Assembly (NCBI GenBank): GCA_024644405.1
Contig: JAHELC010000001.1
Location: forward strand, 72,854 to 136,853
Origin: Nitrospinaceae bacterium
Lineage (GTDB): Bacteria; Nitrospinota; Nitrospinia; Nitrospinales; Nitrospinaceae
Reading direction: 5' to 3'
Length of the DNA stretch: 64,000 nt
The notes under the pieces are model-generated. The model did not search any database, was not told the DNA's origin, and saw only the letters and a list, made by a program, of their open reading frames with translations. Shown piece by piece: positions 21,423 to 28,358 of this stretch (position 1 is the stretch's first letter; each line of letters begins with the position of its first letter). The position numbers and the translations under genes are program-made.

Positions 21423-21430
21423 ACGGAGGT
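21423..21430 (+). promoter_or_regulatory. Shine-Dalgarno fixing the TTG start of the LpxC fusion
   Basis: ACGGAGGT ends five bases before TTG at 21435. The earlier in-frame TTG (21411) has no such site and would place this sequence inside the coding region. Confidence 0.7.
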
Positions 21431-21434
21431 TTCA

Positions 21435-23474
21435 TTGGCTAAAGAAAGAGTCCTCATTGTAGATGACGAAAAAAATATAGTCTCCTCTCTTCAGGAGATA
21501 TTAAACGACGAAGGATATGAGATCGTCACCGCCGAAGACGGGTTGGACGCCCTTGAGATGGTGCAGTCCGAACCCCCGGATCTGGTTCTACTGGATATCT
21601 GGATTCCGGGCATGGACGGGATTGAAGTCTTGCAGGCCATCAAAACCTACCATCCTGAGATCGAAGTATTGGTGATGTCCGGCCACGGAACCATCGACAC
21701 CGCCGTGAAGGCAACCAAACTGGGAGCTTACGATTTTATTGAGAAACCGTTTTCCCTGAACCAATTGGTCCTGTCCGTCGAGAAGGCCCTCAAGCAAAGA
21801 AAAGGCCGGATGAACGGAATTGGCAACCATGACGCGGCTCAGCACGAACTCCCTCACTGTTTTGAAATGATGGTGGAAGTCAGGAAAGCGGTGACCCAGG
21901 CGTCGAAAACCAATGCTCCCATCCTGATCCAGGGTGAAATGGGAACGGGCAAGGAATATATCGCGCAGGCCATTCACCACAAGAGCAAAAAATCCAACTT
22001 CCCCCTCCACAAGATCAACTGCGCGCTCCGCTCCATGCCGAAAATTCAAATTGAACTGTTTACCCATCAGGATGAAAAAGGCCGGCAAACGAAATCAACC
22101 CGTGGAGGCGCCGGGAAGAAGGCGGTGTATCTCAAAAACATCGATTCCATGAGCCGGGACCTTCAGGTACAACTGGCATCCGCCTTAACGTCCACTTCCC
22201 CCGGAAAACCGGAAGGTTTTATACCGGACAGAATCTTTGCCTCCTCCACAAAAGACCTGGAGGCGATGGTCGAAAAGGGAGAATTTCATCCTGGCCTGTA
22301 TGAAGCCTTAAAAGAAAACAGCATCACCGTGCCGCCGTTAAGAGATAACCGGGCGCTGATCCCAACCCTGGTGAGCGAATATTTTGAAGATCTGGAGAAC
22401 CAGGGCAAAGTCGTTTGCAAAAACTTCAACGAAAAGACCATGCGGGCCCTGTGCGAATACGACTGGCCGGAAAACTTCAAGGAACTGCGTTCCGTCCTGG
22501 ACCAGATTGCACGGACCGTCCACCCGGATGAAGAAATCACCCTGAAGGACATTTCGGCTCTGATCAAGCAGAGCCCTTCCCCGGATCAGACAAAATCGAA
22601 AACATCAAAGGGCAAAAAGGGAAACAGCACGCTTCAGCGCACCTTGAAACGCAGCGTGGTGTTGTGTGGGCGCGGCCTGCATTCCGGAATCAAAACCGGC
22701 CTGATCATGCAACCCCTGCCTCCGGGAAGTGGAATAATTTTTGGAGATATCTCCAGCGGAAGCACCATCCCTGCCAAAGTGGAAAACGTGCAATCCACGG
22801 AATACGCCACCAGCCTGCGCAAGGGTTACGCATCCGTCTCCACGATCGAACACATTATGGCCACCCTTCACATGTACCGGGTCCACAACCTGTTGATCAA
22901 AATTGGCGACGAAGCCCCCGTGATGGACGGTTCTGCAAAGGATTTCTGCCAATTGATCGAAGATGGGGATTTCGAGGAACAGGATGAGCCTTACGAAGAA
23001 CTGGTAATCGATAAAGTCTACACCTTCGGGCCGAAGGAAGAAGGCGGAGCACATATATCGATTGAGCCCTATGACGGTTTCAAAGTGAGTTACCACATGG
23101 AATATCCGGCGCCCATCGGTATTATGGAACATACCTTTGAGTTTAAGGGAGCCGAGAGCTTCAAAGAAGAAATCGCACCGGCGCGCACCTTCGGATTCGT
23201 GAAAGATGTGGCCATGCTGAATAAGATGGGTTTTGGAGTCGGCGGCAAACTGGATAACTTCATTCTGCTGGGGGACGAAAAAGTCCTCAACACCACTTTG
23301 CGGTATGAGAACGAATTCGCACGCCACAAAATCCTGGATATTCTCGGGGATTTTTATCTGCTGGGCAAACCGATCCGCGGCTATATCAAAGCTCACAAAT
23401 CAGGACACACTCAAAACATCGGACTTCTAAAAACCATTAAGGAAGACCTGGCCCAAGCGGTGCCCGTTCATTAA
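21435..23474 (+). CDS. lpxC: Response regulator receiver - degenerate AAA - LpxC deacetylase fusion
   Basis: This 679-residue single frame has three parts. Residues 1-120 are a complete CheY-like receiver with D10, D11, phospho-acceptor D54, S82 and K104. Residues about 143-375 resemble an NtrC-type sigma54 AAA domain with Walker A GEMGTGKE (167-174) and the late YDWPENFKELRSVLD motif, but the GAFTGA loop is absent and the Walker B acids are replaced (YLKNIDS, K234-N235). Residues 399-679 are LpxC, UDP-3-O-acyl-GlcNAc deacetylase, the committed lipid A step, with zinc ligands H473, H631 and D635, plus E472 and H658 (E. coli H79, H238, D242, E78, H265). There is no helix-turn-helix. A Lys/Ser-rich linker (about 380-398) joins the AAA part to LpxC. 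The deacetylase call is firm; a regulatory role for the N-terminal parts is inference. Confidence 0.95.
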   Translation: MAKERVLIVDDEKNIVSSLQEILNDEGYEIVTAEDGLDALEMVQSEPPDLVLLDIWIPGMDGIEVLQAIKTYHPEIEVLVMSGHGTIDTAVKATKLGAYDFIEKPFSLNQLVLSVEKALKQRKGRMNGIGNHDAAQHELPHCFEMMVEVRKAVTQASKTNAPILIQGEMGTGKEYIAQAIHHKSKKSNFPLHKINCALRSMPKIQIELFTHQDEKGRQTKSTRGGAGKKAVYLKNIDSMSRDLQVQLASALTSTSPGKPEGFIPDRIFASSTKDLEAMVEKGEFHPGLYEALKENSITVPPLRDNRALIPTLVSEYFEDLENQGKVVCKNFNEKTMRALCEYDWPENFKELRSVLDQIARTVHPDEEITLKDISALIKQSPSPDQTKSKTSKGKKGNSTLQRTLKRSVVLCGRGLHSGIKTGLIMQPLPPGSGIIFGDISSGSTIPAKVENVQSTEYATSLRKGYASVSTIEHIMATLHMYRVHNLLIKIGDEAPVMDGSAKDFCQLIEDGDFEEQDEPYEELVIDKVYTFGPKEEGGAHISIEPYDGFKVSYHMEYPAPIGIMEHTFEFKGAESFKEEIAPARTFGFVKDVAMLNKMGFGVGGKLDNFILLGDEKVLNTTLRYENEFARHKILDILGDFYLLGKPIRGYIKAHKSGHTQNIGLLKTIKEDLAQAVPVH

Positions 23475-23607: not shown

Positions 23608-24237
23608 ATGACTTCCGGCAATTTCAAAATTGGAGTACTGGTGTCCGGACGCGGAACCAATTTGCAGGCGATCATCGATACTATCGAAAACGGAGAATTG
23701 AACGCCCGCATCGCCGTGGTCCTGAGCAATAAGAAAGATGCCCTGGCTTTGGAACGGGCTCGAAAAAAGGGTATCGAAACGGTATTCCTGGACCCCAGAC
23801 AATACGCCGGTAAAAAGGAATTTGATCGGGCACTCGCCAGGGAACTCGAAGCCCGGCAAGTCGACCTGGTTTGCCTGGCCGGGTACATGCGCATTCTCGG
23901 CCCGGAATTCATCCGGAAGTTTGAGGGGAAAGTCATCAACATTCATCCGTCACTCCTGCCGGCGTTTCCGGGGCTGGACGTCCAGCAACAAGCGCTCGAT
24001 TACGGAGTCAAATTTTCCGGGTGCACGGTCCATTTCGTCAACGAAGAAGTCGATGCCGGCCCCGTCATCCTGCAGGCGGTCGTGCCCGTACACCCGTCGG
24101 ACAATGCGGAAACCCTGGCCGAGCGCATTTTGATCCAAGAACATCTCATCTATCCGCGTGCAATACAAATGATCGTCGAAAACCGCCTGCATATTGAAAA
24201 CCGAAAGGTCTCGTACAAGGAAAGCGTATCTCAATGA
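23608..24237 (+). CDS. purN: Phosphoribosylglycinamide formyltransferase
   Basis: It transfers formyl from 10-formyl-THF to GAR in purine synthesis. The 209 residues show VLVSGRGTNLQAI, CLAGYMRILGPEF, the catalytic Asn-His region NIHPSLLPAFPG and GCTVHFVNEEVDAGPVI with the catalytic Asp. The stop overlaps lolA by 4 bp (ATGA). Confidence 0.96.
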   Translation: MTSGNFKIGVLVSGRGTNLQAIIDTIENGELNARIAVVLSNKKDALALERARKKGIETVFLDPRQYAGKKEFDRALARELEARQVDLVCLAGYMRILGPEFIRKFEGKVINIHPSLLPAFPGLDVQQQALDYGVKFSGCTVHFVNEEVDAGPVILQAVVPVHPSDNAETLAERILIQEHLIYPRAIQMIVENRLHIENRKVSYKESVSQ

Positions 24238-26301: not shown

Positions 26302-26604
26302 ATGCCCGATTCGAACACAGAACCCCTGGCGCTGTCCCGCCTGGAAGACCTCAAGGACACCGCCCGTAAACTCTCGATTGAAATCCTGTTCGCCGACCTG
26401 TCCGATCCGGAATTTCCCACTCAAAGCGGTACTTGTAAAGTTCACGGTGAGGATTTTATCGTGGTGGATCAACGACTGTCGGCACAACGTCAGGTCGAGG
26501 TGATCCTCGACATCTTCCAGCAATTTGATTGGGATGACGTCTATGTCGCTTCCTGGATTCGGGAGCGCCTTGAAAACCCCAAACTCACCGGCCTCACATC
26601 ATGA
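26302..26604 (+). CDS. Small unknown protein coupled to the PEP mutase
   Basis: A 100-residue acidic, soluble protein I do not recognise. Residues 24-30 are ISIEILFADL-like and residues 40-75 form an alpha/beta stretch (VHGEDFIVVDQRLSAQRQ...). There is no signal peptide or cysteine motif. Its TGA overlaps the PEP mutase ATG (26601-26604), so the two are translationally coupled. It begins 26 bp after rseP. Confidence 0.75.
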   Translation: MPDSNTEPLALSRLEDLKDTARKLSIEILFADLSDPEFPTQSGTCKVHGEDFIVVDQRLSAQRQVEVILDIFQQFDWDDVYVASWIRERLENPKLTGLTS

Positions 26605-28358
26605 CACTACTCAGCCAGAATCTACCGGAAGACCGGCGCGGCAAACTCAAAGCCCTGCTTGCCCAAGACAAACTCGTCCGCGTCCTGGAAGCCCATAACG
26701 GTCTCAGCGGCATCGTCGCCGACACCACTTGCGTGGAAGGCAAATCCGGCGACCAGTCGGTCACCCGCCAGTTCGACGCGATCTGGGAAAGCAGTCTGAC
26801 CGATTCCGCTTCCAAGGGCCATCCGGACATCGAAGTGATCAGCTTTGATTCGCGCCTGCATAGCATCCAGGAAATCCTGACCGTCACGCAAAAACCCATG
26901 ATCGTGGACGGCGATACCGGCGGCGACCCCAACACCTTCGAATACATGGTATCCAAAATGGAACGGGCCGGCGTCTCGGCGGTCATCATCGAAGATAAAG
27001 TGTTTCCCAAACGCAACAGCCTGGAAGCCGGCACCAGTCAGGTTCTGCAGGAACCCGAAGTGTTCGCCCAGAAAATCAAGCGTGGCAAAAAAGTGCAGGC
27101 CACCGACGATTTCATGATCATCGCCCGTATCGAAAGTCTCATAGCCGGCACGGGGATGGAAGACGCGCTCACCCGCGCCCGCACTTATCTGCAGGCGGGA
27201 GTGGACGGCATCATGATTCACTCCAAGTCCAAACAGCCGGATGAGATCATGGAGTTTGCCGGTAAATACAGCGCCCTCCTCAAGGAATTGGAGATGAGCA
27301 GACCGCTGGTGTGCGTGCCGACCACCTACAACAATATCCCTGAAGAAGAACTGCAGGCGGCAGGTTTCCAAATCATCATTTACGCCAACCATTTGCTACG
27401 CGCCGGGTACAAGGCGATGCGCGACACCGCCAAATCCATTCTGTCGAACCAGCGCTCGCTCGAAGCCGACCCGTTGTGCGCCCCGGTGCGTGAGATTTTC
27501 GATGCGGTCGGCTTTCTGGACGTTAAGGAAAAAGATCAGCAGGATGAGTCCAATACCAATATCCCGGTCATCATCCCCGCCGCCGGGGAAGCGCCGGCCA
27601 TCGAACCCGTGCTCAAAAACGCGCCCAAGGCAATGGCCGATATCGCCGGCAAAACCCTCCTGGCCCGGCAGGCCCAGACCCTCAACCAGAACCGTCTGAC
27701 GGATATCACCGTGGTGACCGGTTACGCCGGCGATAAAATGAAAGGCGAAGGGATTTCCTTCCTGCACAATAAAAATTACAAAAAAGGCACCGAGCTGGAC
27801 AGCTTGCTCATCGCCCAGGAAAAAATGCACAATGGATTTCTGATGCTGTACTCGGATATCCTGCTCGAGAACCATGTGATCGCCCAGTTGCTGGCATCCA
27901 GGGAAGATATCGTTCTGGTGCTGGACAACTCCATTCAATACCTGGAATCGGTGGAGGGCAAGGCGACCGATTACGTGATCAGCCGCAACCGGCAAAACCG
28001 CAACCGCCGAAGCATCAACTTCGACCACCAGAACACCGTGGCCAAAATAGGTAAAAAAATTGACCCGGCGCTAGCCACCCATGAGTTCATCGGTCTCGCC
28101 AAATTCTCGAAGACCGGAGCCGAGCAGTTCCTCCAGACCTATCACGACGCATTGAAAAACCTGAAAGGAAAGGTCCAGGAAGCGGAGGATATTTCCCAGT
28201 TCCGCCTGACCGATCTGATACAAGAGATGATCGACCGCGGTTTCAACGTCCATTATCTGGAAATCCACAAAGGCTGGCTGGAAATCCATTTCCCCAAAGA
28301 CATCGAACTCGCCAACGAATTGTTCATCGCGCAGGAACACCCCTCGGAAGTTTCGTAG
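26601..28358 (+). CDS. Phosphoenolpyruvate mutase fused to a nucleotidyltransferase-like domain
   Basis: PEP mutase makes the C-P bond of phosphonates. Residues 1-310 match the PEP mutase/isocitrate lyase superfamily: RVLEAHNGLSG, KPMIVDGDTGGD, and the phosphonopyruvate-type motif EDKVFPKRNS at 131-140, which separates mutases from lyases. Residues about 320-585 look like an NTP transferase (VIIPAAG, NAPKAM, MLYSDILLEN as the acidic metal site) with a degraded glycine loop. The 585-residue fusion suggests a phosphonate that is then activated by a nucleotide. No phosphonopyruvate decarboxylase (ppd) or transaminase is adjacent; these may lie elsewhere. Confidence 0.85.
   Translation: MTLLSQNLPEDRRGKLKALLAQDKLVRVLEAHNGLSGIVADTTCVEGKSGDQSVTRQFDAIWESSLTDSASKGHPDIEVISFDSRLHSIQEILTVTQKPMIVDGDTGGDPNTFEYMVSKMERAGVSAVIIEDKVFPKRNSLEAGTSQVLQEPEVFAQKIKRGKKVQATDDFMIIARIESLIAGTGMEDALTRARTYLQAGVDGIMIHSKSKQPDEIMEFAGKYSALLKELEMSRPLVCVPTTYNNIPEEELQAAGFQIIIYANHLLRAGYKAMRDTAKSILSNQRSLEADPLCAPVREIFDAVGFLDVKEKDQQDESNTNIPVIIPAAGEAPAIEPVLKNAPKAMADIAGKTLLARQAQTLNQNRLTDITVVTGYAGDKMKGEGISFLHNKNYKKGTELDSLLIAQEKMHNGFLMLYSDILLENHVIAQLLASREDIVLVLDNSIQYLESVEGKATDYVISRNRQNRNRRSINFDHQNTVAKIGKKIDPALATHEFIGLAKFSKTGAEQFLQTYHDALKNLKGKVQEAEDISQFRLTDLIQEMIDRGFNVHYLEIHKGWLEIHFPKDIELANELFIAQEHPSEVS

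Follow-up and report, generated by a model that had tools for sequence, protein, structure and literature searches.

The fusion gene and its product

The window analysed here is a stretch of 64,000 nucleotides from a contig (JAHELC010000001.1) of a Nitrospinaceae bacterium, and it contains a gene in which a receiver domain (REC), a degenerate AAA domain of the sigma54-interaction type with its lid, and LpxC follow one another in a single frame (Table 1). An earlier note, made from the letters of this DNA alone, had described the unbroken frame, the TTG start and the ribosome-site sequence in front of it, all of which were confirmed, and the residues that it named were all found where it had placed them, i.e., the receiver set (D10, D11, D54, S82 and K104) is complete, K173 lies in the Walker A motif, and the zinc ligands (H473, H631 and D635) and catalytic residues (E472 and H658) of LpxC are all present. 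In the alignment, 43 of 59 members from the phylum share this TTG start, against 8 with ATG and 4 with GTG.

Table 1. Features of the fusion locus and orphan kinase genes. Positions refer to the window unless a contig or locus is named.
Feature	Position	Strand	Description and basis
REC-AAA(degenerate)-LpxC fusion gene	21435..23474	+	679 aa, TTG start; ORF and Pfam domains
Shine-Dalgarno-like ACGGAGGT	21423..21430	+	4 nt 5' of the TTG; direct sequence reading
Receiver domain, NtrX-like	21450..21779	+	aa 6-115; Pfam Response_reg 1.1e-33; AF2 model
Phospho-acceptor Asp54 codon GAT	21594..21596	+	sequence; conserved in 87/87 fusions
Degenerate sigma54-interaction AAA without GAFTGA	21867..22325	+	aa 145-297; Pfam Sigma54_activat 1.1e-21
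Walker A GEMGTGKE	21933..21956	+	aa 167-174; K173 in 58/58 phylum fusions with AAA
Former Walker B site AVYLKNID, acids lost	22122..22145	+	aa 230-237; sequence and alignment
AAA lid; no Fis-like HTH behind it, unlike relatives	22350..22598	+	aa 306-388; Pfam AAA_lid_14 3e-11; alignment
Complete LpxC domain	22635..23441	+	aa 401-669; Pfam 5e-80; NCBIfam lpxC above cut-off; Foldseek to LpxC structures
purN-like gene, 3' of the fusion, separate protein	23608..24237	+	Pfam Formyl_trans_N
Orphan kinase gene, own genome	G000:C16:5179-7353
Orphan kinase gene, L212	L212:5107-7416

The LpxC domain scores 269 bits against a cut-off of 27 with PF03331 and 229 against 187 with TIGR00325, and the genome (2.98 Mb, 96% complete) holds exactly one LpxC and also encodes LpxK. 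Judged by its sequence, the protein is the sole and complete LpxC of the organism, with predicted deacetylase activity.

In the AAA part, LKNI takes the place of the LDEI that sigma54 activators show at Walker B, and neither GAFTGA, nor the Walker B acids, nor a helix-turn-helix (HTH) was found in the window protein by Pfam and alignment. Of the features that mark a sigma54 activator (bEBP), GAFTGA, Walker B and the C-terminal Fis-type HTH are missing and Walker A alone is retained, which agrees with the earlier reading of a Walker A without its usual companions, no DNA-binding domain and a complete LpxC, now supported by both sequence and Pfam.

As for the surroundings, purN and RseP-type genes also lie 3' of the fusion in several other phyla, according to the neighbour lists, and serve as a synteny marker. 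Elsewhere in the window, a 585-aa ORF (26601-28358) looks, by eye, like a join of a PEP-mutase-type and a nucleotidyltransferase-type domain.

Fixation in Nitrospinota and occurrence in other phyla

A search of 77 genomes of the phylum found one LpxC in 65 and two in none. Four of the 65 frames are cut by contig ends, and in all 61 with an assessable 5' end the receiver is fused to LpxC in an unbroken frame, including the single-contig assemblies G010, G047 and G057. Since the same fusion stands in 61 of 61 assessable genomes, a chance or assembly artefact is excluded, and the earlier rejection of a gene merge is borne out by these genomes and by other phyla. The lone lpxC and the separately encoded parts for which the note had left room did not turn up either: the fusion is the only lpxC of its genome, and the searched phylum genomes hold no separate genes for its parts. 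Two fairly complete genomes of the phylum (G023 and G003) gave no LpxC match and do have the kinase described below, which may reflect a gap or a loss.

The REC-AAA-LpxC architecture proved to be fixed in a clade, and in one far wider than the earlier note had supposed. Among about 310 genomes sampled outside Nitrospinota, in which LpxC is mostly stand-alone or joined to FabZ, at least 13 carry REC-LpxC or REC-AAA-LpxC, a rough floor for which part of the frames of 430-500 aa were read and G350 was counted from its frame length and adjoining kinase. In the phylum of G138, the fusion query matched 20 of 24 genomes and 15 of the 15 good ones (the match in G512 being covered from residue 156 onward), and in that of G158 it matched 2 of 119. 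The carriers among the matches listed include Desulfomonile (L104, L108), Desulfopila sp. IMCC35006 (L119), a member of Thermodesulfovibrionia (L107), acidobacteria of the Holophagae, Thermoanaerobaculales and Terriglobia together with another acidobacterium (L109, L112-L114), MAGs filed as Deltaproteobacteria (L102, L105, L106), and two poorly placed MAGs (L110, L111). The long LpxC frames of G144, G174, G247 and G269 were rejected as receiver fusions, being LpxC-FabZ with read-through of high-GC frames.

In a tree of 93 LpxC rows, a 100/100 branch separates 48 fused from 45 stand-alone sequences, and the fused branch is long; the fused receivers are likewise split from those of ordinary sigma54 regulators (96/92). 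By these trees, the fusion is one ancient event. At one locus, L258 (G468), another REC protein and a kinase-like gene are encoded directly upstream of a REC-LpxC fusion, an arrangement that may be an intermediate or the result of a duplication.

Unequal fates of the receiver, the AAA domain and the HTH

Within the phylum, REC-AAA-LpxC is found in the family of the window and in others, REC-AAA-FisHTH-LpxC, with the HTH between AAA and LpxC, in most other lineages, REC-HTH-LpxC in G001, and REC-LpxC in G067, G068 and G022. The last of these, a small genome of the window's order (L032), has lost the AAA domain and gave no kinase match. The loss of the Walker B acids is common to the window's order, and deep relatives keep an intact-looking FLDD or FLDE (G071, G073, G074 and G262, the first three of which belong to the phylum and have FLDD). 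GAFTGA occurs in none of the scanned fusions, against 18 of 20 ordinary sigma54 regulators from seven of the same genomes.

On the other hand, the two ends of the protein are well conserved. Mean pairwise identity in the window's order is 0.76 for REC and 0.77 for LpxC, as compared with 0.44 for AAA and 0.36 for the lid. D11, D54, W56, S82 and K104 are invariant in 87 of 87 fusions (D10 in 83, with E in the other 4), the invariant W56 after D54 being a trait of NtrX-like receivers, and no variation occurs in the catalytic residues of LpxC (86 of 86). In the fused part of the tree, the presence of AAA requires 6 changes and that of the HTH 11, whereas REC is missing in no member. This pattern says that the receiver is apparently in use and the AAA domain non-essential, because REC is as conserved as LpxC and its residues are invariant while AAA diverges and is lost; the AAA domain is probably a dispensable remnant, which may still bind nucleotide.

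The earlier note had suggested that phosphorylation and ATP binding could both gate the enzyme. Phosphorylation remains the natural reading, given an intact and constrained receiver and a conserved kinase, but ATP gating was rejected as a main or general mechanism, as repeated losses of AAA have left REC and LpxC in place and, in three cases, the adjoining kinase as well.

A probable kinase partner of the NtrY type

An NtrY-like kinase gene lies immediately 5' of the fusion in L086-L093 and L221, in deep Nitrospinota (G001, G067, G068, G071, G073, G074 and G076), and in most of the other phyla that have the fusion. The kinase has about 750 aa, with the Pfam domains NtrY_N, HAMP, PAS, HisKA and HATPase, and hydropathy, a rough method, predicts transmembrane segments close to its N-terminal end and another around 314-332, with some 190 residues possibly extracytoplasmic. 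It also precedes the AAA-less fusions L102, L105 and L107, and for this reason kinase plus REC-LpxC can be regarded as the minimal unit. No kinase adjoins the fusion in L104, L108, the Acidobacteriota fusions, G083 or G231.

In the window's order, the orthologue of this kinase is present once per genome as an unlinked orphan with no regulator beside it, adjoining a DUF4390 gene. In the kinase tree, in which seven rows from deep Nitrospinota are labelled adjacent and the contig of L189 ends before adjacency would be visible, these orphans nest among the fusion-adjacent kinases. The orthologous kinase is present in 64 of 77 phylum genomes and in 30 of the 31 good ones, and among the other sigma54-type regulators read in the window's own genome none has an NtrX-like receiver. 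The orphan kinase is thus the presumptive partner of the fusion in this organism.

The DUF4390 (PF14334) gene stands just upstream of the NtrY-like kinase at L212:4260-5132, L086:849-1550 and L215:5866-6588, even where the kinase is unlinked to the fusion, and its product is possibly part of the sensor.

Probable origin from an NtrYX system

Both by sequence and by fold, the best full-length match of the fusion is NtrX, and the PDB matches are to Brucella NtrX for the first half and to LpxC for the second. NtrX (NF051870) is the best NCBIfam match as well, at 259.6 bits against a whole-protein cut-off of 600, the C terminus being different. The fusion shares with the NtrX of NtrYX (Brucella NtrX, PDB 5m7n/5m7o) the order REC-AAA-lid and, in relatives, an NtrY-type kinase; it differs in that the HTH is replaced by LpxC (in the window) or followed by it (in relatives), that GAFTGA is lost and AAA dispensable, and that the Walker B acids are lost in the window's order.

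One other line of evidence comes from genomes in which the parts are not fused. At 13 loci (L252-L257 and L259-L265, in the phylum of G158, which would be the Acidobacteriota going by its placement in the LpxC tree), lpxC, an NtrY-like kinase and an NtrX-like regulator are three separate genes in a row on one strand. The same three functions thus exist in two arrangements, row and fusion, which constitutes a link of the Rosetta-stone type between lpxC and ntrYX. The receivers of the row regulators group with the fused receivers (92/92), in a REC-only tree that has too few columns to tell whether the fused receivers form a clade apart from the lpxC-linked NtrX receivers, and two of the row kinases adjoin the fusion-associated clade in the kinase tree. 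Taken together, these groupings indicate that the receiver of the fusion descends from NtrX. Several of the row regulators also lack a GAFTGA-type motif.

A functional tie between NtrYX and LpxC has been reported in Rhodobacter, where loss of NtrYX raised the lpxC transcript about ninefold and increased LPS, and where no NtrX site was detected at lpxC (PMC7240162). NtrYX is known to affect lpxC transcription and LPS in Caulobacter as well as in Rhodobacter (PMC7240162, PMC12444477); among the inputs to lipid A regulation reviewed in 2025, it figures solely as a transcriptional one (PMC12444477).

Comparison with other LpxC proteins and response regulators

The fusion contains the whole catalytic domain of the stand-alone LpxC of E. 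coli, P. aeruginosa and Aquifex, no zinc or catalytic residue being missing, and the fold match shows about 36% identity to the P. aeruginosa enzyme, but the fused members form a separate clade on a long branch, all with an N-terminal receiver. LpxC-FabZ (PRK13188 type), also found in the sampled genomes, likewise places LpxC in a larger polypeptide; there, the partner is a second enzyme at the C terminus, whereas in the fusion a signalling module precedes LpxC at the N terminus. CheB, PleD, RpfG and similar response regulators also join REC to an enzyme and have a kinase partner, but their outputs act on signalling molecules or proteins, while the fusion has as its output the committed step of a biosynthetic pathway that is essential.

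The YejM-LapB-FtsH system of E. coli would share its purpose with the fusion, i.e., the matching of LpxC to the state of the envelope, but it controls LpxC by proteolysis through separate proteins. The N-terminal domain of YejM (PF11893) was found in 0 of 77 phylum genomes, so that this route is at least incomplete in the phylum; the matches to the LapB zinc ribbon (PF18073) have the length of RadA and occur in Gram-positive controls as well.

Proposed mechanism and alternatives

Phosphorylation control of LpxC is the natural reading because the receiver is intact and under strong constraint and its kinase partner is conserved. We consider it probable that an ancient NtrY-NtrX system captured LpxC, giving an NtrX-type regulator with LpxC as its output, in which phosphorylation of D54 by an NtrY-type kinase would set the flux into lipid A. 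Most likely, the membrane histidine kinase, encoded by the orphan gene in the window's genome, would phosphorylate D54 of the receiver; the phosphorylated receiver would then alter the working of the tethered LpxC, probably by dimerising or by docking across the flexible linker, and the altered LpxC would set the flux at the committed step of lipid A synthesis, either up or down. That phosphorylation of D54 changes the LpxC output is what we infer from the constraint on the receiver and its kinase. That the kinase senses LPS or the envelope state directly, with the enzyme as its output, is a possibility on which we lean slightly to the negative side.

The structure predictions returned the expected folds but supported no defined REC-LpxC contact in either the full-length or the short-form model. 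The full-length AF2 model (37 sequences) has a mean pLDDT of 79.7 and a pTM of 0.47, and the short-form, AAA-less model has a pTM of 0.68. Residues 127-139 and 379-396 of the full-length model are disordered linkers, and in the models the linker pLDDT is about 35. Given the disorder of the linker, dimerisation, docking or recruitment would be favoured over rigid coupling.

The main rival to direct control of the enzyme holds that the receiver sets the amount or the place of LpxC rather than its catalysis, through protease delivery gated by phosphorylation or through recruitment to the inner-membrane kinase. RssB, a REC-containing adaptor which delivers RpoS to its protease, offers an analogue. 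The LpxC of E. coli is controlled by proteolysis and that of alphaproteobacteria has been reported as Lon-sensitive (PMC12444477), a disordered linker suits tethering better than rigid allostery, and the kinase is a membrane protein with multiple transmembrane segments. However, this analysis identified no degron or adaptor, and we regard this reading as unlikely, while giving it real weight.

It is far less probable that the receiver is a relic, or a purely structural fold that stabilises LpxC. The AAA domain and the HTH are clearly eroding and, in the window's order, the kinase gene lies apart from the fusion, as such a reading would have it, but a relic would sit badly with phosphorylation residues held invariant through 87 fusions of several phyla, with a REC identity equal to that of the enzyme, and with the retention of the orthologous kinase in nearly all the good genomes.

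The direction of control could also be reversed, the protein being mainly a transcription regulator with LpxC as its sensor of UDP-acyl-GlcNAc, as the Fis-like HTH kept by many relatives might suggest. This is scarcely credible, since the HTH is absent from the window protein and has been lost many times elsewhere, GAFTGA occurs in no fusion, and the only LpxC copy, with its catalytic residues all kept, must be an enzyme. Finally, an annotation or assembly artefact, or cleavage after synthesis into ordinary parts, has next to no chance against an identical frame throughout the assessable phylum genomes and other phyla, single-contig assemblies included, with no stand-alone lpxC as a fallback.

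Significance for lipid A control

Lipid A synthesis is controlled at LpxC, which is also a target for antibiotics, and response regulators whose output is an enzyme are already known. No description of a receiver-LpxC protein was found in the open-access full-text literature and, as far as can be told, a response regulator that has an essential enzyme of lipid A synthesis for its output is new. The regulation of LpxC beyond a few Proteobacteria is largely open (PMC12444477).

The architecture of kinase and receiver-LpxC points to direct control of the enzyme by a signal. In the whole phylum Nitrospinota and in parts of others, LpxC itself appears to have been built into a sensor-kinase pathway, and both the fusion and the gene order tie NtrYX to lipid A, beyond the transcriptional link already known.
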